DNA of 56,544 bases from a virus, in the IMG/VR virus record IMGVR_UViG_3300042987_000761, positions 1-56,544 of that record. The stretch is one strand, 5' to 3'. The notes under the pieces are model-generated. The model was not told where the DNA came from and made no database searches. It saw only the letters and a list, made by a program, of their open reading frames with translations. Positions 21,005 to 56,544 of this stretch are shown piece after piece; position 1 is the first letter of the stretch; each line of letters starts with the position of its first letter. The translations under genes and the position numbers were made by a program.

Positions 21005-21018
21005 AGTTCAGACCCTCC

Positions 21019-21591: not shown

Positions 21592-21616
21592 ATTAACTCC
21601 TAATCAGTAATACCCG

Positions 21617-23151: not shown

Positions 23152-23161
23152 GTGAATCCTC

Positions 23162-23587
23162 TCATAGAAACGCTTTAACCTTCAACGGGTCACCAGTGAC
23201 TTTAGCAATCACCTCGTGGTCGTTGAAGATACTAAATAGTGCCACCTCGTCATCATTCATTGGCACCTCCCATCGATCGCCGCCCCATTTGGGCATCCGA
23301 ACGAAATCCCCGACATCGACCCAATTACCCTCGGGCCAAGGTTCGAGCGTATCGCGTTTCTTGAAAGCCAGTGGTCCCACCGCGATGACCTTCGCCACCT
23401 GATTGTTCCACTTTTCGGTTTCTTTAGTTTCCTCCACCAATACGATTCCGGATTTGGTCGTCGTACGCGGAGTCTGTCTCCACTGAACCAAAATGCGGCC
23501 ACCTACTGGTAATGCACCGGGATCTACCTCAGGAAATGCTTCCTTTAACGCTGCTTCATGCGAAGCTACCGGTTCTTCAATCATCAT
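23162..23587 (-). CDS. GroES-like co-chaperonin
   Basis: 141 aa from ATG 23587 or 23584. The core (PVGGRILVQW, SGIVLVEETK, QVAKVIAVGPLAFK, VGDFVRMPKWGGDR, EVALFSIFNDHEVIAKV) has the beta-barrel pattern of chaperonin-10/GroES, with a loop between strands where the mobile loop would sit. Encoded between portal and scaffold, like phage GroES-type proteins that help fold the capsid protein with host GroEL. ATGA overlap with the upstream gene. Confidence 0.8.
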   Translation of the reverse strand: MMIEEPVASHEAALKEAFPEVDPGALPVGGRILVQWRQTPRTTTKSGIVLVEETKETEKWNNQVAKVIAVGPLAFKKRDTLEPWPEGNWVDVGDFVRMPKWGGDRWEVPMNDDEVALFSIFNDHEVIAKVTGDPLKVKAFL

Positions 23588-23762
23588 TATCCTTTTCTTC
23601 CAAAAGGTCATTTATAATATCCAAAGCCATCTGTAGACCTTGGCGCTGTCCTACCAAATTACGGTAGGAATCATAAGAGGACGCTACTCCGTCCCCCAAT
23701 GAATTCGTGATCTCATTCCGTCGCTTTTCGATCAAAGCGATCAGCTGGCCGACTTCGACCAT
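23577..23762 (-). CDS. small helical head-region protein
   Basis: 61 aa, almost all helix (LIALIEKRRNEITNSLGD, GQRQGLQMALDIINDLLEEK). No known domain. It overlaps the GroES-like gene by 11 nt and follows the 46-aa gene, inside the portal-scaffold segment. Possibly an assembly cofactor; function unknown. Confidence 0.75.
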   Translation of the reverse strand: MVEVGQLIALIEKRRNEITNSLGDGVASSYDSYRNLVGQRQGLQMALDIINDLLEEKDNDD

Positions 23763-23765
23763 AAA

Positions 23766-23906
23766 TCAGTAATTAATAGGGCGCGATGGCGCCGGACCCG
23801 GAATGCCACCCGCTGGCACTTTGGTGCCGGTAGATGGAACATCCTGAGCCAGTCGTTTGTGCTGCGGCACTGCTGCCGACTGCTGGGCTTGATCGGTATT
23901 AGCCAT
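23766..23906 (-). CDS. 46-aa Pro/Ala/Gln-rich small protein
   Basis: A short gene with a perfect AGGAGG ribosome site 5 nt before ATG 23906, overlapping the portal stop by 8 nt. The product is polar and unstructured-looking (NTDQAQQSAAVPQHKRLAQD, then PAGGIPGPAPSRPINY). No membrane segment or domain. The strong ribosome site and coupling to the portal gene argue that it is translated. Function unknown. Confidence 0.7.
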   Translation of the reverse strand: MANTDQAQQSAAVPQHKRLAQDVPSTGTKVPAGGIPGPAPSRPINY

Positions 23907-30260: not shown

Positions 30261-31697
30261 TCAGATCGCGTATGGGTTAATACGGCGCGGTTGCGTGTCA
30301 TCGACGTACAAGTCGTCGTTATCCCGAGGCAGGTCAACCGTGATCAAACTCATATCACGCAAAAGGCGCAACGCCTGCGACGTGGTGTCTATTAAATCAT
30401 CCCTTTCGCTTTCTGGGAAGGAACATATCTGCGAGATGAGTTTTTCAGCCCAGTCCCGAGGCTGGCCTCGTTTGAGCGTCGATTCAGGCACGTAAACCCT
30501 GCCGCGCTCGATGATGTTGGCGATCAACGCCAGTCGCTGGGTCTTGTCCGCTCGACCGGGGTTGTACCCGCGAACAGGAATACCGGACCGCTGCAAGTCC
30601 TGAATGAGCGACAGCCCTGATGCCTTCTCTTCTATCAGCACCTGATCGACCTTCTTACCCGGATCACCATAAACCGAGTCGTACTCCTCGATCATTTTGC
30701 TCTTGAGGTCGGGGTAAATCATGAACTCTTCCCAGCAGTCGATCAGCATAACCGACATGGGCTTGTCATCCGATGGTCGAAACACGCCCCAGACCGAGCA
30801 TGCGGTCGGGTCATTGATCGTCTTGTCGGTGTAGGCGGGGTCGTACGACTGGAGGATGTAGACGAACTCGGGAAATGGCTTGTCCGCCGACCAGAGACGG
30901 AACCACTCGCGTTTAACGATACCGTAGTCTTCCGGATCGATAAGCTCGGCATATAGTTCCTGCCGCCCGAGACGCGTTCCCTCGTACTCGGAGATGATTT
31001 CGTCACGAAAGGTCGGCGCGAGATTCGCGAAGTTCTCGTGGGTGGTTCCCGTGGTCACGAGAGTACGTGGGTCGTCCACCAATTTGCGGATGATCGGAAT
31101 GGGCTTTGGCGTGGTGGTCACGCAGCCGCGAGGCTTCTGGCCGAGACGGAGACCGAACATCAGGTTCGACCACACCGAGTCCGGATTCTTGTATTTCGCA
31201 AGCTCGTCGCACCAGAACAAATCGTGCTGCGGACCACGCAGCGCTTCAGGGTCGGCGTCAGAATAGATGGTGGCGATCGCACCGTTTGGCCATTCTAGGC
31301 GGCGCTTAGATGGTACGAAATTCGGGCGGCAACTGGGGTGCGAAATGGCCAGAATGCCGGATTCACCCTCGACCATCACGTCACGAGCGTCGCCCGCGTC
31401 TTCGGCGATCAGCGCCACCCGACCTGCGAGACCGCGCTCGACATGCCAACGGACGAATTCGGCACCACAGCGCGTTTTGCCCCAGCCGCGACCGGCCAGA
31501 ATCATCCAGATGGTCCACCAGTCCTCTTCGACCGGCACCTGCTGATTAGCCCGACCCCACGTGTGCCAGTCGTAAAATAGCTCTATCGCTTCCTGATCGG
31601 AGAGTTCAGACACGAACTCGTCAAGGTTCGACGGGTCAATTATCGTCTGAGGCTTCTGCCTTTGCTTTCGCCCGGAGCCGCTCTGCAAGTTTGTCAC
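30261..31697 (-). CDS. terL: terminase large subunit
   Basis: 478 aa from GTG 31697, the only good start: GAGGGA lies 5 nt upstream and no ATG occurs before the ATPase. Walker A is LAGRGWGKT (residues 67-75), Walker B LFWCDE (160-165), followed by TTT coupling motif GCVTTTPKP. C-terminal RNase H-like nuclease acidic residues lie in LQSYDPAYTDK, VLIEEKASG and DDLIDTTSQAL. It pumps DNA into the procapsid and cuts it. Overlaps small terminase by 62 nt. Confidence 0.95.
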   Translation of the reverse strand: MTNLQSGSGRKQRQKPQTIIDPSNLDEFVSELSDQEAIELFYDWHTWGRANQQVPVEEDWWTIWMILAGRGWGKTRCGAEFVRWHVERGLAGRVALIAEDAGDARDVMVEGESGILAISHPSCRPNFVPSKRRLEWPNGAIATIYSDADPEALRGPQHDLFWCDELAKYKNPDSVWSNLMFGLRLGQKPRGCVTTTPKPIPIIRKLVDDPRTLVTTGTTHENFANLAPTFRDEIISEYEGTRLGRQELYAELIDPEDYGIVKREWFRLWSADKPFPEFVYILQSYDPAYTDKTINDPTACSVWGVFRPSDDKPMSVMLIDCWEEFMIYPDLKSKMIEEYDSVYGDPGKKVDQVLIEEKASGLSLIQDLQRSGIPVRGYNPGRADKTQRLALIANIIERGRVYVPESTLKRGQPRDWAEKLISQICSFPESERDDLIDTTSQALRLLRDMSLITVDLPRDNDDLYVDDTQPRRINPYAI

Positions 31698-32313
31698 GCA
31701 GTCCCTCTATATTGACGTTAGAGTCGATCGACCCTGAGTGATTTAGTGCGATTTCCTGCTTGCGGAATTTCGCATCGTAGCCCATAAGCGTGAACTGCAA
31801 AAGGGTATCCGAAAATTTCTTGACCGTTTCGCCGGTCTTCATGCCTTGGTGCACCAGAGGCTCGTCGTGACCGACCACCGCGCGTCGGTAGGCTTCGTTC
31901 CTGATCGTCTCGACCATTTCGGCCTGAACCGACTCGATACATGATGAAAACAGCGGGTAAATTTCGCGCCACTTAATAACGGTCATCGCGGAGACACCGA
32001 CCCGCTTGTATGCGCCACTCAGCGAATAATGGTACTCGCCTTTGTCATTGTCACCCCGATAATACGACAAAATCTGCAGCATCAGCCATGCGCGGGTTTC
32101 CTCACGGCGCTTGAGGTCGCCCTCTGCGCGGACCGTCGGATCGACGCACGACACCGAATTAGGCGAGTTTGACGAGTTACCCTCGGCTAAACGCTCACGA
32201 CCGGCTACGATGTCGGCCAGCAGTTCACCGAGCGTACAACCGGCGCGAGCCTCGTGAAAGGCAACCGTGTCGGCACCCAACTGCTCAAACGTGATCAAAT
32301 CGTACTTGGCCAT
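31636..32313 (-). CDS. terS: terminase small subunit
   Basis: 225 aa from ATG 32313; a TTG at 32349 is an alternative. A central helix-turn-helix (SGAYKRVGVSAMTVIKWREI) and the C-terminal helical segment (QEIALNHSGSIDSNVNIEGL) fit a small terminase. It precedes and overlaps the large terminase. It would bind the packaging site, possibly in the repeat-rich gap just upstream. The ribosome site is weak. Confidence 0.8.
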   Translation of the reverse strand: MAKYDLITFEQLGADTVAFHEARAGCTLGELLADIVAGRERLAEGNSSNSPNSVSCVDPTVRAEGDLKRREETRAWLMLQILSYYRGDNDKGEYHYSLSGAYKRVGVSAMTVIKWREIYPLFSSCIESVQAEMVETIRNEAYRRAVVGHDEPLVHQGMKTGETVKKFSDTLLQFTLMGYDAKFRKQEIALNHSGSIDSNVNIEGLRDKLAERLRAKAKAEASDDN

Positions 32314-32396
32314 GGCGCGAATTAAAACACCACAAATTTCACCCGTCAATTATCCACTCTACAACACCGAGCTTGTATCCGGCAGGTGGAACAACC

Positions 32397-39326: not shown

Positions 39327-39692
39327 CTACCACGTGACGGTGGTCGAAACGGTGTGACCATTATCAGACTGATAAGTCTTTACCAACGGCTCGTCGTGTG
39401 GACCGAGCAATTTGTCAAGCTCTAGATCGTCGGTCAGCCGGTCCCGCGCCAGCTGCGCGTAGCCCACTAGATCGACCCATGAATCCGGGTATCTCGGGTC
39501 GCCATTTACGATCCGCGCCATCTTGTGGCAGATCATATCAAGCGATTCTTTCATGTACGACGGCATGAATTCGTACGACCGGCCATGCCGGATTATATCC
39601 TTCAGATCGATCGCGAGTTTCGCCTGTTCGCGAAAGTCACCATAATTCTTAGCACGTTCACTTATGATCTTGTGTATTGACTCTTGACTCAT
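39327..39692 (-). CDS. DUF6378-like protein
   Basis: 121 aa. The conserved pattern ISERAKNYGDFREQAKLAID ... KESLDMICHKMARIVNGD ... DSWVDLVGYAQLARD matches DUF6378, a small helical phage family with conserved His/Asp that may be related to all-alpha nucleotide pyrophosphatases. GGGAG precedes ATG 39692. It is the last gene of the Z-nucleotide cluster, so a nucleotide-handling role is a reasonable but untested inference. Confidence 0.8.
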   Translation of the reverse strand: MSQESIHKIISERAKNYGDFREQAKLAIDLKDIIRHGRSYEFMPSYMKESLDMICHKMARIVNGDPRYPDSWVDLVGYAQLARDRLTDDLELDKLLGPHDEPLVKTYQSDNGHTVSTTVTW

Positions 39693-39825
39693 CGATTTTC
39701 TCCCTAGTGGTCATACGATGTTTGCATTTCACGTTCTTACACTCACGACGACGCTTTATCGAGTTATCAACATTTTTGTATGTCAATATCACGTGCGTCG
39801 CCGAATCACACTTCACACATTTCAT
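39658..39825 (-). CDS. NrdR-like zinc-ribbon small protein
   Basis: 55 aa. ATG 39825 overlaps the DatZ stop by ATGA, and the gene overlaps the DUF6378 start by 35 nt. The sequence (KCVKCDSATHVILTY, then IKRRRECKNVKCKHRMTTRE) matches the N-terminal zinc ribbon of NrdR (CxxC, RRReC, C, R-(F/M)-TT-x-E), but the ATP-cone that follows in NrdR is absent. NrdR represses ribonucleotide reductase operons. Here it could recognise DNA near nrd genes or act as a decoy; this is inference. Coupling to datZ suggests a nucleotide-pool role. Confidence 0.78.
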   Translation of the reverse strand: MKCVKCDSATHVILTYKNVDNSIKRRRECKNVKCKHRMTTREKIDESRVNTQDHK

Positions 39826-40358
39826 ATACCCATTTCCTTTCGGACTTCGAACAATCCCGATCGAATTTTCAAATCCGGATAGTCCTTCTCATACCGATCG
39901 ATCATATCATACATGGTATCATATAGGCCAGATAGTACATTTTTGGCGTGATCGCCGATGCCGTTATCCTTTAAGAACCAGATCGCTTCGAGTATGTCTG
40001 CAAGCTTCACTATCATACCATGCACAGTGCCTTCGGCTTGACGATACATGCCACCGTACTCGGGCATGAATTCTTGCTCGGCATCCAGCATATTCGCACC
40101 GCGTGATTCCAATGCACGTTTGAATGGCGTCGGCATATCACCGGTGTAAATCTCTACGATATCGTGCGACATCGCCCAAGATATCAAATCCAGCTGCTGC
40201 GCATAATGAAACCGGCCATTCCACTCGATCGCGGTAGCGATTCGCATCGCGATGCCGATCACGTTGAATGAATGCTCCGCTACCGATTGCGATTTTATCG
40301 TATTTACTATCGTCCATCGTTTGGTGTACGACGCACGTAACCACTCATTCGCTTTCAT
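39822..40358 (-). CDS. datZ: DatZ-like HD-domain dATP phosphohydrolase
   Basis: 178 aa from ATG 40358 (a GTG lies one codon before). HD-domain metal ligands are visible: H29 (SQSVAEHSFNV), H65-D66 (SHDIVEIYTGDMPTPFK) and D121 (KLADILEAIWFL). Length and motifs fit the YfbR/DatZ family. In Z-genome phages DatZ removes dATP so that the polymerase inserts 2-aminoadenine. YfbR-type 5'-nucleotidase is the alternative, but the location two genes after purZ supports DatZ. Overlaps neighbours on both sides. Confidence 0.9.
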   Translation of the reverse strand: MKANEWLRASYTKRWTIVNTIKSQSVAEHSFNVIGIAMRIATAIEWNGRFHYAQQLDLISWAMSHDIVEIYTGDMPTPFKRALESRGANMLDAEQEFMPEYGGMYRQAEGTVHGMIVKLADILEAIWFLKDNGIGDHAKNVLSGLYDTMYDMIDRYEKDYPDLKIRSGLFEVRKEMGI

Positions 40359-40590
40359 CACGTACTTTCATCATTGCATCTGCTTGTGCATATGCAGTTC
40401 GAGCATTTGATTCGAGATGATGCGGTTCGACATACCCTTTATTGTTTATCACTAGACTCTGTACTATCTTCGCTGCGAAGTAATCGCGCAATGTCATGCC
40501 GGTGTGCACATAACGCTGATTACTCTGCGGATGGTCGAATGTGAGTGGGAATGCTAGATACTCTTCTTTAGGTTCTACGTTATCAGACAT
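40345..40590 (-). CDS. unknown protein between mazZ and datZ
   Basis: 81 aa (FPLTFDHPQSNQRYVHTGMT, LRDYFAAKIVQSLVINNKGY). The GMTLRDYFAAK core is found in many small phage/prophage proteins of unknown function. It overlaps MazZ by 8 nt and DatZ by 14 nt, so it is translated with them. A role in the Z pathway is possible but its family also occurs outside Z phages. Confidence 0.78.
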   Translation of the reverse strand: MSDNVEPKEEYLAFPLTFDHPQSNQRYVHTGMTLRDYFAAKIVQSLVINNKGYVEPHHLESNARTAYAQADAMMKVRDESE

Positions 40591-41077
40591 GGCGCATAAT
40601 CCTCGTATTTTGGTCTACTCTCCAAGACCGTTGTTCATTAATATCCATCTTGTCCATGATGGCCTTCTGTATATCGATGCCGTTCATATGCGCGACATCG
40701 AGCAGCAGTATCATGATATCGCCGAATTCAAGTGGTGATTTCGGATCACGCGCATACTCACCAAGTTCCTCGTACAGCTTAAGCAGAACATCTGCGGTCG
40801 TGCGATTCGGGAAGTTCGAATCTGCCCATTCGACGATACGATCCTGCAGCTGCTTAATATCGGCACCAGTGCGCTTGTGGTATGCAGACACTGCTCGCAA
40901 TGCGAAATCGGCATTGATGTCGCACGAACCAGTTACACCCTTGTATATATCGCGTGTCTCGAAATCCGCGACCGGCAAGCCATTGGCATCGACCAGCAAT
41001 GCGGGATTGCCTTCGTGCTTGCGCCATGGTAGCGGGTTCATCTCATCGGTGTACCCGATCGCCTCAAAAATCGGCAT
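40583..41077 (-). CDS. mazZ: MazZ-like MazG pyrophosphohydrolase with extra N-terminal domain
   Basis: 164 aa. ATG 41077 follows AGGGAG with 7-nt spacing and overlaps the end of purZ. The MazG signature is at residues 103-120: EELGE, then EFGD (ExxE ... ExxD metal site). In phage S-2L-type systems MazZ turns (d)GTP into dGMP, the PurZ substrate. About 80 N-terminal residues (NPALLVDANGLPVADFET, CDINADFALRAVSAYHK) form a separate small domain that is not part of the MazG core. The substrate is inferred from the PurZ context. Confidence 0.85.
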   Translation of the reverse strand: MPIFEAIGYTDEMNPLPWRKHEGNPALLVDANGLPVADFETRDIYKGVTGSCDINADFALRAVSAYHKRTGADIKQLQDRIVEWADSNFPNRTTADVLLKLYEELGEYARDPKSPLEFGDIMILLLDVAHMNGIDIQKAIMDKMDINEQRSWRVDQNTRIMRHV

Positions 41078-42086
41078 AATCAATCTCCCTAATATCTGCG
41101 TCATCCGGACCGAAGCAAAGGTAATCCGGTCCCCATCCAGTACCGTGCATCCTACGAATGATGTCGGTCAGTGTGTCCTCGTTACAATAATCCGCGAATG
41201 TCAGCACCGTCTTGGTCGATAAACCCGCGCAGTGTAGCATCGCGTGTTGGTATTGTACATCCGAGAATTCGAAGATGCGACGCGGCAGCTTGGTCACCGT
41301 GGTGAGTTCAGGCTCGCGGCCCAAATCGCCCCACGATATCTCTTTCTGCCCCGGATACGCCGGACCCGATGTGCCATCACGATTGTTCACGCGAATCGGG
41401 AACGTACGCGCCACCATCCATACTGTGATTGCTGGTGCCCACACGAACGGTAATCCACAGTCTGCCGCGATCTGCCACGGCGTCACGTCGCGTGATGTGC
41501 AGTACGGCCAGTCACCATGATACAGCGACAGCCCGAATCCTTGTGCGCCTTCGACCAGCAGCGTCCTCGACTCGTTCAGGATGCGGTCGTATTCGAATCT
41601 ATCGACCACGAACTGCCCCAATGGGTGATTCGCGAATCCGAGCTTGGCTACCGCTTTCGAATCCGGATCGCGCATGATCCGATCGACCATCGCCGCGCCC
41701 ACGCCTTTGGTGGTGGATCCAATTTTGGTCATGCCGAGCGATTTCTCGCGCTCCGCGTGGTCATCACGCACTACCGCCGCGTGTTCATGAATCACCAGCC
41801 GCTGACCGCCGGTCATATACTGTTGTATTTCTCGCTGCAGGGTACCCGCATGAATCAGCGATCCCGGTCCGAGCATGACGGTCTTCACCGTCGGACCCGA
41901 TACGCCGACCGGCAGCTGCTGCACCATCATCTTCAGGCCCCGTGCGCGGTCATTGTAGGTATGACCAGCTTGTGTGCCATACGAACATACCACCGTGTCA
42001 TACGGTACGCGCTTGGCGAGCCAGCCGGACACGCCGCCCTTGCCACACGAACCCCACATGCCGTCCATCGTTAAATCGATCTTCAT
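41064..42086 (-). CDS. purZ: PurZ, N6-succino-2-amino-2'-deoxyadenylate synthase
   Basis: 340 aa, adenylosuccinate synthetase family. The key P-loop region reads MWGSCGKGGVSG: Ser13 stands where PurA has its catalytic Asp (WGDEGKG), the change that defines PurZ and lets it use dGMP instead of IMP. His42 (GTQAGHTYND) is the general acid. Other family motifs: GSTTKGVGAA (123-132), EGAQG (179-183), SRDVTP and TKLPRRIFEFSD (265-276). It joins Asp to dGMP to make the precursor of 2-aminoadenine (Z); host PurB then finishes it. About 90 residues shorter than bacterial PurA, as usual for phage PurZ. AGAGGG lies before the ATG. Confidence 0.96.
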   Translation of the reverse strand: MKIDLTMDGMWGSCGKGGVSGWLAKRVPYDTVVCSYGTQAGHTYNDRARGLKMMVQQLPVGVSGPTVKTVMLGPGSLIHAGTLQREIQQYMTGGQRLVIHEHAAVVRDDHAEREKSLGMTKIGSTTKGVGAAMVDRIMRDPDSKAVAKLGFANHPLGQFVVDRFEYDRILNESRTLLVEGAQGFGLSLYHGDWPYCTSRDVTPWQIAADCGLPFVWAPAITVWMVARTFPIRVNNRDGTSGPAYPGQKEISWGDLGREPELTTVTKLPRRIFEFSDVQYQHAMLHCAGLSTKTVLTFADYCNEDTLTDIIRRMHGTGWGPDYLCFGPDDADIREIDYADF

Positions 42087-42113
42087 GAATGCCCTCTATA
42101 GGTTAGAATGTGT

Positions 42114-42122
42114 ATTATAACA
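42114..42122 (-). promoter_or_regulatory. possible extended -10 promoter for purZ
   Basis: Minus strand TG-T-TATAAT (42114-42122) lies in the 58-nt gap between the DNA polymerase gene and purZ. No good -35 hexamer is found 16-18 nt upstream, so it would rely on the extended -10. It could give the Z cassette its own transcript. Confidence 0.4.
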
Positions 42123-42144
42123 TAATCGTACGGGTGACGTAGTA

Positions 42145-43965
42145 TCAGCCTTTCGCCGTGTACCAGTTGTCACCCACACCCCAATCGCAGGTGATCGGCA
42201 CCCGGAACCGCATTTCGCACGACTCTCCGTCGAATGTCGTATATATCTTCGCTATCGCCTCCGGATTCGCGTCCTTTTCGAGCGATATCCCGACTTCATC
42301 ATGTACGGTCAGCAGCAGCCGCCCCGCGTCATGCTCGGTCAGATACCTGTCGATTTCGATGAGTTTGACCTTCATCGCATCGGCGCTGGTGCCTTGGTAG
42401 ATCAGCCCCGACGCCTTGTGCGTAAACTGCCCACCCGGAAACCGGATGTGACGACCCATCATGGTCTGCACGTACCCCCGCTGTTTAGCGATCGCGGATG
42501 CCTTCTGCTGCATGTTGCGCATTCCCGGATTCGCGGTGTGGTACTTCTCGAAGATCGCCAGCGCCTCCGGTCCGGGCTTCACGAATGGCCGACCATCCGG
42601 CATCGTCTCTTCGGTGCACGGTAGTCCGATTTCCTGCGCCAATCGACCAGCGCCCATGTTGAATGCCAGCCCGAGATTAATCGCTTTGGACGATGGGCCA
42701 CCCGCATATTCCGCATTTCGAGGAATTCCGGTCATGTCGGATACTAGCTGGTGGAAATCCAAGTTCGGGTTGTCCTTGTATGCCTTGAGAATGGCGGGGA
42801 CTTGCCCGTAGTGATTAGCGACTCGAAACTCGAACTGCGACCAATCCATACCAAGCCATGCTGCTCCTTCGTCCGGGAGAAAAATGGGGCGTACCAGCGA
42901 CTTGATTTCTTTATCCCGAGACGGTATCTGCTGCAATGCAGGATTAGTAACTGATAGCCGACCGGTTCCGGTGCCAGCTTCAGCGTCGTTTTTAGTCTGG
43001 TTATAGTTACAGTGAATAACACCGTCATTGTGATGTCCCAATATGTGACCAGACAGGAATGTGTCGCGGGTTTTAAGCATTTTGCGCAGGTCGAGGATCA
43101 TCTTCGCCGCCGGATGCTTCATGCGCCGCAAGCACTCTGCATTGATCGACGCCTTGCCTCCTTCGGTCTTATCAGCGCGGGTTCCGTCATTCAGGTACCA
43201 CTCACCGTCTATCTCCAGCTTCGGCTCGAATAGCTTCGCAATCGATCCGGAAGGGTTCGGGTTGACCTCGAATCCGGCCATGGTATTCAGATCCCGCTGA
43301 GCGGTCTCGATGCGCTTCGTGAGGCCACGGACGGCCTCCTCTGCCCGATCGATGTCCACCCGCACACCGCCCTCTTCCATCCGGATGATGACCGGCAGCA
43401 GCCGACGCTCCAGCTGATGAACCTTCGACAGCTTGCCGATTTCACCTTCCTGCCACCGGTACAGCTTCATCGTCGCGAGCGCATCCTGTTTCGCATACCG
43501 TGCCACCATGTCCTCAGGCGCACGAGATATATTTGGCATCTGAGCGTTGCGAGTAGCACGACCACCGAAAAGGGTAGCCATCTCCTCATATATCTCCGAA
43601 TCCTTGCGAGTACCTGCATATTTACGAGCCAAGAAATCAAGTTCATAGGTAGGTTCGTGTTCGGATATCAGAGCGGCGCGGATCATGGTGCAATCGATCC
43701 GATCGTCCGGCAGCTGCACCCCCGCCTCGCGCAGGAAGTGGTAGTCGAACTTCAGATTATGCCCGACCCACACCGTGCGCGGATTGTTCGCGATCAGATC
43801 ACTTAGCCAATCGATAAATTGAGGAGCCGTTCGAACATCGAAATACCAAGTATCTTCGGTCTCCGTACACAGCGAAACCCCAAAAACGCGGTCGTTCCAC
43901 CAGTGCAGCCCGGTCGTCTCCGTGTCGATCACCAACACTTTCGGATTCTCTATGCGCGGAAACAT
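42145..43965 (-). CDS. dpoZ: family A DNA polymerase with 3'-5' exonuclease (DpoZ candidate)
   Basis: 606 aa. Exonuclease motifs: D14-x-E16 (VIDTETTGL), D74 (HNLKFDYHF), Y157-x3-D161 (RYAKQDA). Polymerase motifs: GTGRLSVTNPALQQIPSR (333-350), motif A D374-x4-E379 (MDWSQFEFR), O-helix K427 (SSKAINLGLAFNMG), motif C VHDEVG (554-559). There is no 5'-3' exonuclease domain. In the O-helix, Pol I Phe762 is Leu431, Tyr766 is Phe435 and the Arg754 position is Gly423. Adjacent to purZ, it fits the DpoZ polymerases of Z phages that favour dZTP. The substrate preference is inferred. Confidence 0.92.
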   Translation of the reverse strand: MFPRIENPKVLVIDTETTGLHWWNDRVFGVSLCTETEDTWYFDVRTAPQFIDWLSDLIANNPRTVWVGHNLKFDYHFLREAGVQLPDDRIDCTMIRAALISEHEPTYELDFLARKYAGTRKDSEIYEEMATLFGGRATRNAQMPNISRAPEDMVARYAKQDALATMKLYRWQEGEIGKLSKVHQLERRLLPVIIRMEEGGVRVDIDRAEEAVRGLTKRIETAQRDLNTMAGFEVNPNPSGSIAKLFEPKLEIDGEWYLNDGTRADKTEGGKASINAECLRRMKHPAAKMILDLRKMLKTRDTFLSGHILGHHNDGVIHCNYNQTKNDAEAGTGTGRLSVTNPALQQIPSRDKEIKSLVRPIFLPDEGAAWLGMDWSQFEFRVANHYGQVPAILKAYKDNPNLDFHQLVSDMTGIPRNAEYAGGPSSKAINLGLAFNMGAGRLAQEIGLPCTEETMPDGRPFVKPGPEALAIFEKYHTANPGMRNMQQKASAIAKQRGYVQTMMGRHIRFPGGQFTHKASGLIYQGTSADAMKVKLIEIDRYLTEHDAGRLLLTVHDEVGISLEKDANPEAIAKIYTTFDGESCEMRFRVPITCDWGVGDNWYTAKG

Positions 43966-43970
43966 AGCGA

Positions 43971-44240
43971 TCAGAATGGTAGGTCATCGTAGAATTCCTT
44001 GCCCACTTCGCGACTGGTCGTGCTGGCCGAAGGCGGTGGGTCCTTGCGATTGATCGCGATCGAGAAGTATTTCTGCCCATCGAGCTTCGATCCGGGTCTG
44101 CCTTCCTTAACCCACGCGGACATCCAGTATTCGACGCCCTCGACGTTGATGGTGCCGGTATACTCGGGATGCGTGTCCTTCTCTTTGCGCTTGTTACGAG
44201 CGAGCATGCCGGAATTGGTGTTGTCGTATTCTTTGTTCAT
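43971..44240 (-). CDS. short protein with SSB-like C-terminal tail
   Basis: 89 aa from ATG 44240 (GGAG 8 nt upstream). Lys-rich N-terminus, a small beta core (TGTINVEGVEYWMSAWVKEG, KYFSIAINRKD) that could be an OB-type fold, then EFYDDLPF at the C-terminus. The last residues copy the acidic tip of bacterial SSB (DDDIPF) that recruits replication proteins. Located between the UvrD-like helicase and DNA polymerase. Candidate mini-SSB or SSB-tip mimic. Confidence 0.75.
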   Translation of the reverse strand: MNKEYDNTNSGMLARNKRKEKDTHPEYTGTINVEGVEYWMSAWVKEGRPGSKLDGQKYFSIAINRKDPPPSASTTSREVGKEFYDDLPF

Positions 44241-44254
44241 ATGCTAATCTCCAG

Positions 44255-45670
44255 TTAAATTTTATACCCATTAAGACCTTCGACGATATCTAGGGTATGC
44301 TTAGCTCTCGTCATCCCGACATACCAGACGCGAATCTCGTCATCGGGCTTTTTCTCCGCAGTTTCGGTCACTTTCTGCGTAGTATCCGTAAGTAATATGA
44401 CTCTATCGGCTTCATGACCTTTTGATGCATGAATAGTAGAAAGCCGCAGACGAGGCACACTATCGAGATTAGCATCACGATAAAAGTCAATAACCCTAAA
44501 TGGAATATCGAGTGCAATATAGAACGGCTTAGATAGTATGGCCTCATAATCGTTCTTCTCAAGATGTCCTCTAGTCTCTGGCGTCGCCACGTTATATAAC
44601 GCGGTGCGTTCGGATTCCTGCAATATCGCGCCACTCTTTAACTTGTTATACGCCATCACGCCCTTGGCATATTTATTCTGATACATGCCCGGTCTGCCCG
44701 ATTCTCGCAGATAAGGAATGCGTCTGTCAATCAGGTCCTTTTCGATCTCTCGCAAGACCGAATGCGTCCGTCCCAACAATAGGATATCCTCTTGTGGTGA
44801 TATCGCCACCGAGTTGATGTTACCGTGTACCTGTACGGATCCCATATCCGGTCGGGGATTGAACTCCTTATCGACGCGCAGAGTGATTCGACGTATGAGC
44901 GCTTGCGATCTTTGGTGCACACTAACAGGTAATCGATGTGATACCGATAACACTTGGCTATCACCGCTGTGCTTCGCGATGAATCGAGCCATGCCGTGTG
45001 GATCGGCCCCCGACCATGCGAAGATCGCCTGATCGTCATCACCCGCGATATGGATTTCTTCTGCACCTTTCGCAAAGCAGTCGATGACCCGCCACTGAAG
45101 AGGTGATAAATCCTGTGCTTCATCGACGAATATAATTTCGGCGTCAGGGTGCGACTTCTTTTTGGCGACTCGCTCCAGCATGTCGGTGAAGTCGTAAAAT
45201 CCATAAGTATCCTTCCAGTCAGAATACGCTCGAAGAAACATATTGAACTCGGCGCGGGTTCCGGGTCTGGTGCTGTAGTCATACACGATCGCAGGATCAG
45301 TGAAGGTATTCCGTGCATAATTGATGATGTCCAGATAAGAATCGCCGTCTGCTCGTTCTTCGTCGTCCTCGGGTGACTTGCCGATCACCGGCACACCGAC
45401 GAGTGACGAGAATTCGCGCAGCTTTGCAGGGTCCACCACCTGTGACTGCTTGAGATTCAGCAGACGGAAGCACATCGAGTGAATGGTGGATACATTGTTG
45501 CTACGTTTAAGGCCCAAGCGTGACAATGCCTCGCTCGCCGCCGCACGTGTGAATGACACGAATGCGATACGCTCGGCTTGGACACCGGATGACTTGGCTT
45601 CGGCGACGCGACGTAACATCTCGGTCGTCTTACCAGTCCCCGGTGGGCCGTAGATAGCGTAGACTTGCAC
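44255..45670 (-). CDS. UvrD/PcrA-like SF1 DNA helicase
   Basis: 471 aa from GTG 45670, which overlaps the upstream TAG. Motifs: Walker A IYGPPGTGKTT (6-16), Ia VSFTRAAASEAL, motif II IFVDEAQD, motif III IAGDDDQAIFAWSGADP, motif IV/V region and VI (STIHASKGHEADRVILL, YVGMTRAKHTL). It is a 3'-5' SF1A helicase, shorter than UvrD and lacking most of the 1B/2B inserts. Probably unwinds the replication fork together with the SNF2-like protein. Confidence 0.92.
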   Translation of the reverse strand: MQVYAIYGPPGTGKTTEMLRRVAEAKSSGVQAERIAFVSFTRAAASEALSRLGLKRSNNVSTIHSMCFRLLNLKQSQVVDPAKLREFSSLVGVPVIGKSPEDDEERADGDSYLDIINYARNTFTDPAIVYDYSTRPGTRAEFNMFLRAYSDWKDTYGFYDFTDMLERVAKKKSHPDAEIIFVDEAQDLSPLQWRVIDCFAKGAEEIHIAGDDDQAIFAWSGADPHGMARFIAKHSGDSQVLSVSHRLPVSVHQRSQALIRRITLRVDKEFNPRPDMGSVQVHGNINSVAISPQEDILLLGRTHSVLREIEKDLIDRRIPYLRESGRPGMYQNKYAKGVMAYNKLKSGAILQESERTALYNVATPETRGHLEKNDYEAILSKPFYIALDIPFRVIDFYRDANLDSVPRLRLSTIHASKGHEADRVILLTDTTQKVTETAEKKPDDEIRVWYVGMTRAKHTLDIVEGLNGYKI

Positions 45671-46049: not shown

Positions 46050-46787
46050 TCAGAACTCTTCTGCGACCTCTGCAGATTCGTCGTAATCAGCGTTGACCTT
46101 CACGCCGCCCTTCGAGATAACCTCGTACAGCTTCTCGGCGCGGTCGTATATCTCCTTCGACACGAATCCGATCGGGGTTACGTTGAAGTTATGATACTGT
46201 TCATTCCGAGCGTTGGTCTCGACGACCGAAGACAGCTTGTACGCACGTGAGAATGAGTCGGTCTCGGTCAGGCGCATGAGCGAATTCCAGCGCTTGGACA
46301 CTTTGACCTTCGACTTGGCCATCGATACCACTGCTTCCGACCATTTGTCACCATGCAGGACCAGCACGAAATGCTGCGCGGTATCCGAGATTTCGAGACC
46401 TTCCTCGTTCAGACCCGCGATCGCGGCTTCCGCGTCTGATCGGGTGTTGAATGCTCCACGGAATCCGTTGGTGCCGCCACCCATCTTGCGATCCTTCCAT
46501 ACCAAGAACTGCTTCTGGTAGTACACCGGAACGACCATCACTTCGAGACCGTATAACTCGCGTGTGACGTTGTTGAACATCATGCCCTCATCCGCACCTT
46601 CGATGTAGGCAGGGTCCGATTTCTTTCTAGCCGGTGATAGCGCCTGAATGAGTTCGATTCGCGGAATGATGACGTCTTCGGATCCGACGTTTTCAGCTCC
46701 TCGATTCGACCCCTTCTTCAGAAATTCTGGTATGTCGTCGGTCACTGCGAATGCTTCAACCTTCGTCACTGCGTTGCTTTTAGCCAT
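46050..46787 (-). CDS. putative replication-associated protein with acidic tail
   Basis: 245 aa. Pattern SEDVIIPRIELIQALSPARK, EVMVVPVYYQKQFLVWKDRK, VVSMAKSKVKVSKRWNSLMR is a phage family near helicase/primase genes with no agreed name. The C-terminus (DYDESAEVAEEF) is acidic and ends in Phe like T7 gp2.5-type single-strand binding proteins, so ssDNA binding is a reasonable guess. AAGGAG precedes the ATG. Not confirmed by fold. Confidence 0.72.
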   Translation of the reverse strand: MAKSNAVTKVEAFAVTDDIPEFLKKGSNRGAENVGSEDVIIPRIELIQALSPARKKSDPAYIEGADEGMMFNNVTRELYGLEVMVVPVYYQKQFLVWKDRKMGGGTNGFRGAFNTRSDAEAAIAGLNEEGLEISDTAQHFVLVLHGDKWSEAVVSMAKSKVKVSKRWNSLMRLTETDSFSRAYKLSSVVETNARNEQYHNFNVTPIGFVSKEIYDRAEKLYEVISKGGVKVNADYDESAEVAEEF

Positions 46788-46817
46788 GTTAATTCTCCTT
46801 AAATGGCGTGGATATCA

Positions 46818-46835
46818 GACACACCGAAGTGTGCC
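46818..46835 (-). other. UUCG-loop hairpin in replication operon
   Basis: In the 70-nt gap between 46050-46787 and 46858-47292, minus strand GGCACAC-TTCG-GTGTGTC forms a 7-bp stem with a very stable tetraloop. No U-run follows, so it is more likely an mRNA stability or processing element than a terminator. Confidence 0.7.
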
Positions 46836-46857
46836 ACTTACTACCGCTTGCGCGGAT

Positions 46858-47292
46858 TCAAGACTTGGTGATCGATGCACGAGTGAATGGTGACACATTC
46901 AACAGCTCTTCCGGCACTACTTCACCCTCGCGGACCATGTTCTTAACGGTTGCCTTCAACGTGCTTGGATTGATATTCGGCTGTATCAGATCGCCGCGCC
47001 CATTATCGCGTAGCCATGTGTAGAACAGCTCCTTGCTGCCCTCCTTGATCGATACATGCATATCTGCGGTGAGCGACACACGCCCCACGCCCTCGACATT
47101 CAAATTACGAATACCTTGATCTTCCATCTCTTGCGGTATCTTGGTGATACGCAGAAAGTCGAAATGCTTATTAAATCTCTTGAGTTCAGCCTCGGCGTTG
47201 TCCTTGTCGGTCTGCACACGACGCATCTCGCGGATGAGTTCCATCAGCGTCATGCCGTCGTACATCGAGAATTCGTTAGTATCAAATGACAT
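46858..47292 (-). CDS. conserved small replication-region protein
   Basis: 144 aa. N-terminal coiled coil (LMELIREMRRVQTDKDNAEA), then RNLNVEGVGRVSLTADMHVS and YTWLRDNGRGDLIQPNINPS, a pattern I recall from small proteins in phage replication operons with no assigned activity. Overlaps the upstream gene by 11 nt. Confidence 0.75.
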   Translation of the reverse strand: MSFDTNEFSMYDGMTLMELIREMRRVQTDKDNAEAELKRFNKHFDFLRITKIPQEMEDQGIRNLNVEGVGRVSLTADMHVSIKEGSKELFYTWLRDNGRGDLIQPNINPSTLKATVKNMVREGEVVPEELLNVSPFTRASITKS

Positions 47293-47617
47293 CGCGATCC
47301 CCTTCGAGGTCTATGCGAATCGGAGTGTATGTGTGATCGCGGTTGTTCCACTTCAGGAAATTGAACGAGCTGCCCTTTTCACGCGCAAGCGCCATAGCAA
47401 TGCAAGCGATGATAGGGCTACCAGATGGAGCGAGGTAATCTTCAGCCGGATTAAAATTTCTAAGACGGTCGCGAATATTGTTGACAAGTTTAACATTATG
47501 TAATGAACTCAGTGAACCGGAAACTTCTGAAGCGCATAAGAATACGACATCACCATAACGCTCGGCTGGGCGATAATTGGCAACGGCGACTTCCTGCGTG
47601 ATGTATACTGTAGGCAT
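47282..47617 (-). CDS. hypothetical protein with own promoter
   Basis: 111 aa from ATG 47617, set by GAGGATAGAG just upstream; the upstream extension lies in the promoter. Sequence (YITQEVAVANYRPAERYGDV, VVFLCASEVSGSLSSLHNVK) is alpha/beta, no known domain. It is the first gene after the promoter at 47639-47667. Confidence 0.75.
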   Translation of the reverse strand: MPTVYITQEVAVANYRPAERYGDVVFLCASEVSGSLSSLHNVKLVNNIRDRLRNFNPAEDYLAPSGSPIIACIAMALAREKGSSFNFLKWNNRDHTYTPIRIDLEGDRDVI

Positions 47618-47638
47618 CTCTATCCTCTCGGTGGAATA

Positions 47639-47667
47639 ATTATAGCACATTATGCTCAAGCGATCAA
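47639..47667 (-). promoter_or_regulatory. sigma70-type promoter with extended -10
   Basis: Minus strand TTGATC (47662-47667), 17-nt spacer ending TGC, TATAAT (47639-47644). It starts inside the 3' end of the helicase gene and gives internal transcription of the replication operon. Confidence 0.75.
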
Positions 47668-49383
47668 TGCCTCGACGTTTTTACTATTGATGCTCTCGCG
47701 TACGAACTCCGATACATTCTTTTTGTCTTGCAAAGCGGACAATATCGCGCCATCGACCGACTTCTCCATCACCAGATCGATGTACAACACCGACTTGGTC
47801 TGACCGATCCGATGCGCACGATCTTCCGACTGATCGCGTTCGACGTAATTGAACGAATTGCTAAAATACACTACTAATTCGGCGGCGGTCATATTCAGAC
47901 CGGTGCCCCCGGTCGCCGCGTTCCCGACCAGAAATCGTGCCTTCTTCTTCTGGAATAGCTCCTGCACGTTGTGATCGCGATCCTTTTCGGACACCTGACC
48001 GTATATCTCGACCACTTGGTCGTGACCATACTTGGCGCGTAGAGCCTCGGACACCATATGAATCTCTTCGATGAATCGGCACCACACGATAGTGGACACT
48101 TGATATTCCTCGGCGATACTGAGCAGTTCCTCTATCTTCGGATTCCGACCGGGGATTCGCGAGTGTTCGTACTTTGAGGGATTGAACAAATCCGGATTCC
48201 TTTCAAATGTGACGATACCTCCGCATATCTCTTGGAGTCGTAGCATTCTCTCCAACACCGTATTGACTGTGAGTCCTCGATCCCCCACGACTGCACGGTT
48301 TTTCTTAGCAATGTCTGTATACAGGCTTTTCTGCTCTTCATTAAACTGCACTTCTCGGATTTCATACACTTTCGGTGGTAATTCGGTTAATACTTCGGAT
48401 TTACGTACTTGATACACATATGGTGACACTAACTCGATCAACTCCTCCATATTCTGATAGCCGATGATCTGCTTACCCTCGAACCCGCCCATTACCGCGT
48501 AGCGGTTCCTGAATGAGAAGAAGTCGCCGCTGCCGATGATATTCTCATCGAGGAATTCGAACTGCATATACAGGTCGAGTGGCGCATTCGCGATCGGAGT
48601 GCCGGTCATGACCAGCTTGTACTTGGCACCACGCCCGATCTTAACCGCATTCTTGGCTCGCACCGCATTATGGGTCTTAATCATATGCGCTTCATCAACG
48701 ATCATGCCAACGCGAGTGGACGTGTTCACGAATCTCTCGGCGTAAGTAGCTGCCGATCCCGCAGCCAGCGATTCAGTACCGACTATCAGTACCTTCAAAG
48801 CGTCGGTGGTGCTGGTGTTGAATGCGTCGAATATTTTAGGCTTGGTGGTGTCCAGTACCATCACTTCATACGGCACCGGGCAGTGAATCGCGAATTCGCG
48901 CTCCCAGTTCATGCGAGTCGAGAACTTGGTCACCACCAACAATCGATCTACATCGCCTTCCATATGATACGCCGAGAATAGATCGATCGAAGTCTTGGTC
49001 TTACCAGTACCCATATCCATGTAGTACGCGAATGACTCCTTTTTCCACGAGTACGACAGCGCTTTAAGCTGATACGCTCGCGGCAGCGTCTTGAATGGAT
49101 ACGTCGATGGGAATTCAGCGATCGGCGCGATCGACTTTACCTGTACAGCATTTCTGGCAACGTCATATGCCTCTTTAGACCAGAACTGATTAGGAAAGCG
49201 GTCAAGCATATAGGCGGCATTTGTTCGCAGCGCAGGTGCGGTCCAAACGCGACGCTTTGCATCCCAACGACGGTTAGGAATGGCACGAATGTGATCAATC
49301 GACCAAGGCGGCGATATGATGATGAACCGACCTGATTTCGGGTCATACGTGATATCAATATTCTGGCGTGAAGTCTGGAGCAT
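47656..49383 (-). CDS. SNF2-like SF2 helicase/ATPase
   Basis: 575 aa from ATG 49383 (GGGAGAAG upstream), overlapping the primase by 29 nt. N-terminal ~60 residues look like a small HARP-type domain (GRFIIISPPW, RRWDAKRRVWTAP). Walker A MGTGKTKTSID (124-134), DEAH (230-233), motif III VMTGTPIANAPLDL, motifs V-VI GGTGLNMT and ERDQSEDRAHRIGQTK. This is SNF2/SWI-type architecture, common in phages as annealing or fork-remodelling helicase. Coupled to the primase. Confidence 0.9.
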   Translation of the reverse strand: MLQTSRQNIDITYDPKSGRFIIISPPWSIDHIRAIPNRRWDAKRRVWTAPALRTNAAYMLDRFPNQFWSKEAYDVARNAVQVKSIAPIAEFPSTYPFKTLPRAYQLKALSYSWKKESFAYYMDMGTGKTKTSIDLFSAYHMEGDVDRLLVVTKFSTRMNWEREFAIHCPVPYEVMVLDTTKPKIFDAFNTSTTDALKVLIVGTESLAAGSAATYAERFVNTSTRVGMIVDEAHMIKTHNAVRAKNAVKIGRGAKYKLVMTGTPIANAPLDLYMQFEFLDENIIGSGDFFSFRNRYAVMGGFEGKQIIGYQNMEELIELVSPYVYQVRKSEVLTELPPKVYEIREVQFNEEQKSLYTDIAKKNRAVVGDRGLTVNTVLERMLRLQEICGGIVTFERNPDLFNPSKYEHSRIPGRNPKIEELLSIAEEYQVSTIVWCRFIEEIHMVSEALRAKYGHDQVVEIYGQVSEKDRDHNVQELFQKKKARFLVGNAATGGTGLNMTAAELVVYFSNSFNYVERDQSEDRAHRIGQTKSVLYIDLVMEKSVDGAILSALQDKKNVSEFVRESINSKNVEALIA

Positions 49384-50911
49384 CCACTTCTCCCTCTATG
49401 TCGTCGCTAATCGGAGCATACCACACGTTAATCGGGTACGAATGACCCGGAATACGCATCTTGGTATGCGCGGCACCACATTCCCGCCGCAGCGTGGTCC
49501 AAAGGTCCATACCCTGCTGCAGCTCGGCCTTGTTACGCTTCAAGAATTCGGAGAATGCGATACCCTTGAATACTATGCAGCGAATGCCGTCCAGCTCCTG
49601 CACCACCGGAATGTTGCGAGTCAATGCCTTGCGCTCGTGCGGATCCTTACCGTCTGATGTCAGATCGGCTTTCTGCATGAATTCGTGGAACTTCTGCTCG
49701 ATGATACCTGATGCTGATGCCTCCTTCGGTACTTCGATCACGCGGATATTCGGCACCAACGGATCTAGGATTCTTTTTCGCCACGCGTCCTGCGAAATCT
49801 TCGGAATATTGATTTTAAGTTGCTCGAAGATGAGAGTACCCATGGCGTTAGGATCACGGAGTACTACAGTAGGAATATTAGAAATAAGCTTACCGTTAAC
49901 GTGAAGTCCCCAGCGGGGAGGGTCCGACTGGTATTCGATAAGGTCGGTAAAACTAGGAAGGGAATCATACGCCTCCAATGCTTTAGCTTCGTCGGTGGAT
50001 ATTCCATATTCGCGTGTGACACACACTTTGCGATCACACAGCGACTTGCACGGGTCTTCACCACACTTGTACTGGTACTCGCGCCGCGATGCCGAGCGAA
50101 TGACCTTCCGCGCCTCCTGATTATTCAACGGTTTGTCGAACATCGTCCGATTCAGCGCCATCGCGTCATCGAAGAATGTCTCCGGTCGTGCGCGTTTGAG
50201 ATAGATGACCACGTTATACATGGCCTCATTACGAGCACCCGACTCAACACCAGTATGAATCATCTTCTGGATGCAGGGTGGTGCCTCCAAATGCTCACGA
50301 TTCGCCAGCGCGTTCAGCTCTTCGACCGTCAGGCGCTTCGATTGTGCATACTGGATGAACAATTCGAACGACAGGCGCTTGCCGTCCTGATCAAACGCGT
50401 ACCGGTTGGTGTCATCGCCGCCGAAGTAGCAGAGATTCAACCAGTTGCCGAGCGACTTCTCGCCGGATTTGGTCACCACCGAGTCCTGTTTCGGGAATAT
50501 CTCGGTCTTGTGCGGAATCTGCAGGATGTCGCGCCACGATGACAGCAGCCGGATTACCACTTTCGCCGGTAGCCACTCCGAACCGAACAGGTAGCAATGA
50601 GCACCCCCGCGCTTGGACCGACATACCACCAACGGCAATCGGTGCTGCTCGATCTTCCTGATTAGTGCCAGATGATCGATATCCTCCGAACTCTCGTGGG
50701 CGTCCACATCGATCGCCCCGAACATAACAGTGCCGCCATCGGAAATCGGTACGATCCCGAGGCCCATCGTGCCTTCGATATGCGCCTGATAATGGTCAAT
50801 CGTCGGCTCGCCCTTCTCGGTCACCGCCCGATCGGTTTTAGCGTCGTACTGACCGAACGACCGCAGATTTCCCGCGAACAACGCTGCATAATCATTGATT
50901 AAGCTGGACAT
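49355..50911 (-). CDS. AEP-family primase-polymerase
   Basis: 518 aa. Archaeo-eukaryotic primase motifs: DVD (68-70, FGAIDVDAHES), RSKRGGAHCYLFG (98-110, motif II His105) and EIFPKQ ... GNWLNLCYFGGDD (138-168). A four-Cys cluster at C284, C289, C293, C298 (CGEDPCKSLCDRKVC) follows, then a helical C-terminal part. Resembles the PrimPol/TOTE-type primases. It would make primers for the family A polymerase. First gene after region B; promoter at 50941-50969. Confidence 0.9.
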   Translation of the reverse strand: MSSLINDYAALFAGNLRSFGQYDAKTDRAVTEKGEPTIDHYQAHIEGTMGLGIVPISDGGTVMFGAIDVDAHESSEDIDHLALIRKIEQHRLPLVVCRSKRGGAHCYLFGSEWLPAKVVIRLLSSWRDILQIPHKTEIFPKQDSVVTKSGEKSLGNWLNLCYFGGDDTNRYAFDQDGKRLSFELFIQYAQSKRLTVEELNALANREHLEAPPCIQKMIHTGVESGARNEAMYNVVIYLKRARPETFFDDAMALNRTMFDKPLNNQEARKVIRSASRREYQYKCGEDPCKSLCDRKVCVTREYGISTDEAKALEAYDSLPSFTDLIEYQSDPPRWGLHVNGKLISNIPTVVLRDPNAMGTLIFEQLKINIPKISQDAWRKRILDPLVPNIRVIEVPKEASASGIIEQKFHEFMQKADLTSDGKDPHERKALTRNIPVVQELDGIRCIVFKGIAFSEFLKRNKAELQQGMDLWTTLRRECGAAHTKMRIPGHSYPINVWYAPISDDIEGEVDAPDFTPEY

Positions 50912-55650: not shown

Positions 55651-56544
55651 TTATCTTACCTCTTTGAGATATGCTAAAGGCGATTTCGCCTTAGGCGGTA
55701 TTTTATCATTAGAAGCACTTCTTTTGTGTTTCCTTATAGCCTCTCGCATTTTGTCGAGACGTCTCGCGCCCTCAGCGTTAGACCCGTCACCGAGAGCTGC
55801 CACCACGTCGGCATCGAAGACGTATTCTCCGTCGGCCAGTCGCGCGTCGATTAAGTCATCTTGACCGCCCCCGGCGCCTTGCACATAATGCGACCCCTTA
55901 TGAGGCACACCCGAACCACCTGCCGCCATCAAAGGTGTGGCTAAGACGTTTCCACCATCAGCAAATGCGGCCAACCCACCGCGTTTCATGAGCATCCTGC
56001 CCGGCTCAGGCACGGGTTCTATTTCATCATCTATCGCGCCATATGAATAATAGGACGGAGTGTCACCCGACAGCATAGCAATCAACTGCTCTAAAGTGGG
56101 TTCAGGCGTGGTGGCGTCTGGCGCGGAAGTAGCAGGGTATTCCATATCAGCCTCAGTATCAATGCTAGTGGGTATAGTGACGAGTTCAGACGTCCGTTTA
56201 ATAGGATCAAATACTGATTCGAATTTGTTCGGTAGTATGCTCGAAGTTAAATATTTATCAAACCATTCGCGGTTAGCTGGAGCGTTGGCGGATGATTCAC
56301 TCAGCGTCAACGGATTGATAGAAATCGACTGAGGCTGCGTCAAGTCTACTTCGGTGTCTGGTGTCTCTGGGGGCTTTTTGTCATCTGGTGGAGTCAGCGG
56401 GAATTCCTGCGTGGGGATTTCAGGGATTTCATCATCAGGAGGATCTACGATCACGACCGGACCCTCACCGCCGGGACCCTCACCGCCGGGACCCTCACCG
56501 CCGGGACCCTCACCGCCGGGACCCTCACCGCCGGGTAAATGCGG
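55651..56544 (-). CDS. Pro-rich virion protein, 3' part (runs in from right edge)
   Basis: Open from the right edge to the stop at 55651, 297 codons, with GTG 56454 as the first usable internal start. It begins with five GGEGP repeats, then an acidic Pro-rich part (DPPDDEIPEIPTQEFPLTPP) and a globular end with FADGGNV, HYVQGAGGGQDDLIDARLAD and GEYVFDADVVAALGDGSNAE, a pattern I recall from phage virion proteins. May be the C-terminal half of the gene cut at the left edge; a direct join is out of frame by one base. Confidence 0.8.
   Translation of the reverse strand, partial: PHLPGGEGPGGEGPGGEGPGGEGPGGEGPVVIVDPPDDEIPEIPTQEFPLTPPDDKKPPETPDTEVDLTQPQSISINPLTLSESSANAPANREWFDKYLTSSILPNKFESVFDPIKRTSELVTIPTSIDTEADMEYPATSAPDATTPEPTLEQLIAMLSGDTPSYYSYGAIDDEIEPVPEPGRMLMKRGGLAAFADGGNVLATPLMAAGGSGVPHKGSHYVQGAGGGQDDLIDARLADGEYVFDADVVAALGDGSNAEGARRLDKMREAIRKHKRSASNDKIPPKAKSPLAYLKEVR
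56461..56535 (-). repeat. 15-bp tandem repeat, five identical copies
   Basis: Five perfect copies of a GC-rich 15-mer, read on the minus strand as Gly-Gly-Glu-Gly-Pro. The window ends 9 nt after the repeat, so an assembly break caused by the repeat is likely. Confidence 0.95.

Follow-up and report, generated by a model that had tools for sequence, protein, structure and literature searches.

The stretch of DNA analyzed here, IMG/VR record IMGVR_UViG_3300042987_000761, is a single 56,544-nt record from an uncultivated virus (hereafter, the window). It very probably carries a functional system for building a genome with 2-aminoadenine (Z) in place of adenine in a near-complete podovirus-like phage, where Z would protect A-containing restriction sites. 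The gene content, key residues, selection, phylogeny, replication block difference, and palindrome footprint on which this explanation is based were obtained in the present analysis; the enzyme activities, the steps assigned to the host, and the presence of Z in virion DNA are extrapolated from characterized relatives. The Z system and its enzymes are of a known kind, while the pairing of Z and non-Z phages on one virion backbone and the footprint go further.

A predicted Z cassette in a near-complete phage genome

The Z genes lie on the minus strand in a row that reads, in the order of transcription, UvrD-like helicase, single-strand DNA-binding protein (SSB), DpoZ, PurZ, MazZ, an 81–amino acid (aa) open reading frame (ORF), DatZ, and a DUF6378 gene. 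The cassette from DpoZ through DatZ spans positions 43965 to 39822, and all of its reading frames are intact. PurZ overlaps MazZ by 41 nt, MazZ overlaps the 81-aa ORF by 8 nt, and the latter overlaps DatZ by 17 nt. A preliminary description of the region had named a polymerase, PurZ, and MazZ-like and DatZ-like proteins as a complete cassette with overlapping ends. The family matches, intact frames, residues, and selection described below confirm these four genes, and the overlaps hold from PurZ through DatZ but not between DpoZ and PurZ, which are 58 nt apart. The polymerase is first in transcription order, and the additional 81-aa gene separates MazZ from DatZ. The low boundary moves from 39658 to 39822, where the Z set ends, and the flanking SSB, UvrD-like helicase, and DUF6378 genes had been left out.

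Catalytic and specificity residues were judged against PMC8342488, PMC8065100, PMC8599892, and PMC12884076. By profile, PDB, and residue evidence, dpoZ (42145 to 43965, minus strand, 606 aa) encodes a family A DNA polymerase with a 3′→5′ exonuclease that belongs to the predicted Z-preferring clade. It scores 812 bits against NCBIfam phage_DpoZ_1 (cutoff 500), and its best PDB match is 7pbk, the phiVC8 DpoZ (E = 3e-140). The protein retains L455, F459, and G548 as well as fingers insertions 2 and 3 (compared with PMC8599892), and both the D-E-D-D tetrad of the 3′→5′ exonuclease and the D/K/HD catalytic residues of the polymerase are intact.

The predicted MazZ-1 type (d)GTP pyrophosphohydrolase gene mazZ (40583 to 41104, minus strand, 173 aa) was assigned by PDB, PF04447, and residue evidence. 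The best PDB match, 7ody (S-2L MazZ; E = 1.8e-13), covers residues 81 to 173 and leaves an N-terminal extension of ~80 residues; N-terminal fusions are frequent in MazZ-1 (PMC8342488). Equivalents of the metal-binding E35, E38, E50, and D53, of the guanine-specific I56 and D60, and of R83 are retained (PMC8342488). The predicted dATP triphosphohydrolase gene datZ (39822 to 40361, minus strand, GTG start, 179 aa) encodes an HD-domain protein that matches phrog_7076 (E = 7.5e-31) and, as its best PDB hit, 6zpa (S-2L DatZ; E = 1e-13). Equivalents of the metal ligands H34, H66, D67, E70, and D119 and of the base- or phosphate-contacting R19, W20, I22, P79, and K81 are retained (PMC8065100). The 81-aa ORF between these two genes (40345 to 40590, minus strand; phrog_2201, function unassigned) is found in only part of the clade, and we rejected it as a Z gene since it is missing from much of the clade.

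Taken from sequence comparison, the family matches of the cassette genes are far beyond chance, and the catalytic and specificity residues of the set are kept with the exception of one PurZ pocket residue. The ratio of nonsynonymous to synonymous substitution rates (dN/dS) was ~0.01 to 0.15 for dpoZ, purZ, mazZ, and datZ in most comparisons with usable dS, with a highest value of 0.25; in several distant comparisons dS was saturated and no ratio could be given. By this measure, all four Z genes are under purifying selection. By analogy with characterized enzymes, MazZ would convert (d)GTP to (d)GMP, PurZ would join dGMP and aspartate into succino-amino-dAMP, and host PurB and kinases would complete dZTP. 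DatZ would remove dATP, and DpoZ, preferring dZTP, would copy DNA with Z in place of A.

The window itself is a near-complete phage genome that is not closed. Both contig ends fall inside low-complexity coding repeats of virion-protein genes (1 to 230 and 56451 to 56544; TGT repeats and GGEGP repeats), which is probably why the assembly did not close.

PurZ assignment

The purZ gene (41064 to 42086, minus strand, 340 aa), a predicted (d)GMP-aspartate ligase, was assigned by PHROG, NCBIfam, and PDB matches, a tree, and residues. Its product matches PHROG 1211 (phrog_1211; E = 9e-64) and the structures 6fm1 (phiVC8) and 7odx (S-2L). In the motif WGSCGKGG, Ser replaces the catalytic Asp13 of PurA at the position of S-2L S23. 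The dGMP base-pocket residues G22, S23, A50, T132, Q190, and V241 (S-2L numbering) are kept. A tree of 112 PurZ and PurA proteins, built by a quick method with support from the Shimodaira-Hasegawa–like approximate likelihood ratio test (SH-aLRT) only, places the window PurZ within phage PurZ, with E. coli PurA, archaeal PurA, and PurZ0 outside; support for the phage PurZ clades is 98 to 99. The window's subclade holds 33 sequences, all from environmental contigs and none from an isolate. The preliminary description had made clustering with PurA one outcome that would speak against a Z genome; both the grouping with phage PurZ and the Asp13-to-Ser replacement fall on the other side.

Two features of the protein weigh against the Z reading. 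Its score with the NCBIfam PurZ model is 278 bits, slightly below the cutoff of 300, and the first-shell pocket position N49 is Gln in the window PurZ and its whole clade. We rejected the notion that this Asn-to-Gln change is unique to the clade, since the same Gln occurs in L092 to L095, L107, and archaeal PurZ-like proteins. Four of the latter (L049, L050, L051, and L053, from Nanoarchaeota and Aenigmatarchaeota) have no neighboring DpoZ or DatZ.

If the protein were in fact a phage PurA turning IMP into adenylosuccinate, the hydrolases would only balance nucleotide pools and virion DNA would be ordinary. PF00709 is common to PurA and PurZ, and the score below the cutoff fits such a view. 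We nevertheless regard it as extremely improbable: the catalytic Asp13 is replaced, the protein sits within phage PurZ and away from E. coli and archaeal PurA, nearly all loci place PurZ next to DpoZ, DatZ, and MazZ, and the palindrome footprint described below weighs against ordinary virion DNA. By analogy with characterized relatives, PurZ would act on dGMP as the enzyme forming succino-amino-dAMP, and the Z reading is supported at the sequence level, with one PurZ pocket residue differing.

One virion backbone with and without Z

The window's head module (20090 to 26397, minus strand), which comprises the major capsid protein (MCP), a GroES-like protein, and the portal, is common to non-Z phages. 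The MCP is 87.5% identical to that of the Manatee Spring phage MW202545, 77% to that of Caulobacter phage RW, and 91 to 94% to those of non-Z contigs. No PurZ, DatZ, MazZ, or DpoZ-type polymerase was found in MW202545 or RW. An MCP scan yielded at least 598 related contigs, and the comparison set comprised the 19 contigs of >42 kb whose MCP is 91 to 94% identical to that of the window. PurZ, DatZ, and any family A polymerase are absent from 18 of the 19, and the remaining one has all three; because fragmentary records may be among them, a single absence is weak evidence, but the pattern over 18 is not.

Compared gene by gene, head genes resemble those of Z relatives about as closely as those of non-Z relatives. 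From the terminase small subunit to the primase (49355 to 50911, minus strand; phrog_21866, the right side of the exchanged block), most genes have matches in Z relatives but not in any of the compared non-Z contigs, with one weak SNF2 match in RW as the exception. On this comparison, the Z set travels in a ~20-kb replication block, terminase to primase, on a backbone also found in non-Z phages. Phages that share a capsid and differ in the replication block amount to a natural experiment on what a phage with a given backbone gains from Z.

The large and small terminase subunits lie at 30261 to 32349 (minus strand), with the large subunit (TerL) at 30261 to 31697. In the gene-by-gene set, TerL is 73 to 75% identical in two Z members and 43 to 52% in three non-Z members; it is 74 to 88% identical over the other Z members of the backbone and 37 to 58% over all non-Z members. 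TerL therefore follows Z state (73 to 88% versus 37 to 58%) and not capsid identity (MCP 88 to 96%). The exception is a pair of distant Z relatives, G001 and G002 (MCP 77%), whose TerL is only 37 to 43% identical.

In relatives such as contigs G025 and G055, DpoZ is 73 to 76% identical to that of the window and PurZ only 44 to 46%. The DpoZ tree joins the window to L116 to L150 (support 100), and the PurZ tree joins it to L089 to L111 (support 99). Forcing the grouping of either gene on the other was rejected by the approximately unbiased test (P = 6e-5 and 6e-4), with P values that are somewhat optimistic because the groups were named after the trees had been seen. As the trees indicate, PurZ was swapped inside an otherwise kept cassette, which shows that the core enzyme can be traded between lineages.

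A probable restriction footprint in palindromes

Where A is replaced by Z, selection against restriction sites should weaken for palindromes that contain A but continue for those made of G and C only. Palindromic k-mers were scored as observed over expected counts, with expectations from a maximum-order Markov model, and medians were taken for 13 Z genomes on the window's backbone, 20 non-Z genomes on the same backbone, and 16 Z genomes on other backbones. The median for A-containing 6-mers was 0.84 in same-backbone Z genomes versus 0.62 in non-Z genomes (P = 2e-5), and 0.84 in Z genomes on other backbones. GC-only 6-mers gave 0.33 versus 0.32 (P = 0.7) and 0.41, respectively, and composition-matched non-palindromes gave 0.92 to 1.01 across groups. 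When only homologous virion genes were considered, A-containing 6-mers stood at 0.80 versus 0.60 (P = 2e-5), with P = 1 for GC-only 6-mers. The contrast persists at the level of k-mer clusters (7 Z and 15 non-Z clusters, P = 5e-4) and after adjustment for GC content (t = 7.3). In the window alone, observed counts are 0.12 of those expected for GC-only 6-mers and 0.86 for A-containing 6-mers. A first version with 9 versus 9 genomes showed the effect and was then enlarged; these 18 genomes are part of the larger set, which therefore does not replicate them independently.

Established Z phages agree, with A-containing 6-mers at 0.88 (phiVC8), 0.91 (SH-Ab), and 0.92 (S-2L), while Wayne, with PurZ0, has 0.72 and vibriophage VP4 has 0.57. 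S-2L is uninformative on the contrast because its GC-only 6-mers are not avoided either (1.00). Overall, the footprint suggests that Z is incorporated and shields A-containing sites from restriction in nature, easing the pressure from restriction enzymes with A in their sites. The restriction resistance that had been predicted for this phage finds a trace here, with A-containing 6-mers relaxed in Z genomes and GC-only 6-mers not. In the literature searched, which is a part of the whole, no study turned up that had applied this test to Z phages before; it may help to check, from sequence alone, other phages suspected of carrying modified DNA.

Several points count against this interpretation of the footprint. 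Avoidance of GC-only palindromic 4-mers is likewise weaker in Z genomes (0.96 versus 0.78, P = 2.5e-5), an effect not accounted for by shielding of A-containing sites alone. The Z genomes on the window's backbone probably stem from a small number of acquisitions, and their hosts may differ from those of the non-Z genomes. The last point leaves a modest but real chance that differing hosts and restriction repertoires, rather than Z, produced the A-specific relaxation, as would also fit the 4-mer result and the wide range of GC-only avoidance among non-Z members (0 to 0.9). Such an origin is harder to reconcile with the recurrence of the pattern in established Z phages and in Z genomes from other backbones, with GC-only 6-mers unchanged between Z and non-Z genomes, and with a contrast that survives in homologous virion genes and after cluster and GC correction.

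A mixed A/Z genome, with dZTP made and replacement partial owing to a weak PurZ in this clade, would agree with the clade-wide Gln in the base pocket and with the residual avoidance of A-containing 6-mers (0.74 to 0.92, below 1). We consider it unlikely, as DatZ and DpoZ are intact and under selection and phiVC8, SH-Ab, and S-2L show similar residual avoidance (0.88 to 0.92).

Protection of A-containing sites by Z may be joined with the genomic comparison: in one widespread podovirus-like backbone, near-identical capsids would be combined with either a Z or a non-Z version of a ~20-kb block of terminase, replication, and Z genes, PurZ would have been exchanged inside it, and the A-specific footprint would appear only in Z phages, with GC-only 6-mers still avoided. 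We hold this combined statement to be evenly balanced between true and false. If it is true, restriction is what selects for Z in nature, Z phages can be recognized from genome sequence by their footprint, and the terminase may be matched to Z-DNA.

Comparison with known Z phages

A full four-part set had been thought uncommon, which is not the case. Relatives of PurZ occur on at least 574 IMG/VR contigs. Both PurZ and DatZ were present in 95 loci, and the order DpoZ-PurZ-MazZ-DatZ is conserved in nearly all of them. Because nearly all of these 95 loci also carry MazZ and DpoZ, the full set is the rule. Podoviruses with Z are already known (phiVC8, ZP6, and vB_OspP_OH). Cassettes with PurZ, DpoZ, and DatZ also occur on contigs binned into bacterial metagenome-assembled genomes (L046, L047, L048, L076, and L077; Verrucomicrobia, Gaiellales, Gammaproteobacteria, and Gottesmanbacteria), which are candidate prophages or stray phage contigs.

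Acinetobacter phage SH-Ab 15497 and the Klebsiella/Salmonella PMBT28-type Z siphoviruses share with the window a block of UvrD-like helicase, DpoZ, SSB, PurZ, MazZ-1, and DatZ (DpoZ 45 to 50% and PurZ 39 to 42% identical). Unlike the window, they have siphovirus-type virion genes, SSB after DpoZ, and DUF5664 fused to MazZ, where the window has a DUF6378 gene instead. The podoviruses Vibrio phage phiVC8 and Alteromonas phage ZP6 resemble the window in having DpoZ, PurZ, a MazG-type enzyme, and DatZ followed by a DUF6378 gene, but their enzyme is MazZ-2 rather than MazZ-1, a primase lies between DpoZ and PurZ, PurZ is 38 to 40% identical, and neither matches the window's capsid or portal. Cyanophage S-2L has the purZ-mazZ-datZ order, MazZ-1, and DatZ (PDB 7odx, 7ody, and 6zpa); it differs in having PrimPol and no DpoZ, siphovirus-type virion genes, and a different genome layout. 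The Caulobacter phage RW group and MW202545 share the virion module (MCP 77 to 88% and portal 47 to 62% identical) but have different replication genes, a TerL only 41 to 44% identical, and no PurZ, DatZ, MazZ, DUF6378, or DpoZ-type polymerase. A GroES-like co-chaperonin gene (23162 to 23611) within the head module is also present in RW and MW202545.

As the preliminary description had it, a podovirus-like virion is plausible from the virion genes. Matches to Pam3 gp33 and gp34 had raised the prospect of a Z myovirus, which was rejected, as the virion genes lack a sheath or tube and match podovirus-like relatives. An alphaproteobacterial host is a guess, made because the nearest cultured virion relatives are Caulobacter phages.

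Flanking genes

The DUF6378 gene (39327 to 39692, minus strand; PF19905) lies downstream of datZ, as it does in L029, L030, L035, L036, L039, and ~50 IMG/VR loci. Among the 95 PurZ-DatZ loci, DUF6378 occurs in 57 and DUF5664 in 7, never together. The best PDB matches of its AlphaFold2 (AF2) model are all S-2L MazZ but weak (E = 0.14 to 0.58; TM score, 0.3 to 0.4), and hhalign found no link of DUF6378 to DUF5664 or MazZ. It is possibly a further helical nucleotide hydrolase. We did not accept it as a dedicated fifth Z enzyme, given the null hhalign result, the weak AF2 match, and its presence in 242 phage records that include non-Z phages (e.g., CRP-901), and we keep it as a lead.

On the other side of the cassette, all on the minus strand, lie the SSB gene (43971 to 44240; phrog_18154/7364), syntenic in other Z phages, and, within the replication block, a UvrD/PcrA-like helicase gene (44255 to 45670; PF00580, 2e-29; phrog_1967). 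They are followed in the block by genes for Pam3 gp34-like, Pam3 gp33-like, phrog_5888, and SNF2-type helicase proteins (46050 to 49383), which have counterparts in Z relatives and none in non-Z backbone contigs. A separate gene at 32827 to 33261 matches phrog_2165 (labeled DNA helicase); it has no relatives in the tested non-Z backbone contigs. In several Z phages its relatives are neighbors of datZ; in ZP6, the gene adjoining datZ carries a VRR-NUC nuclease annotation.

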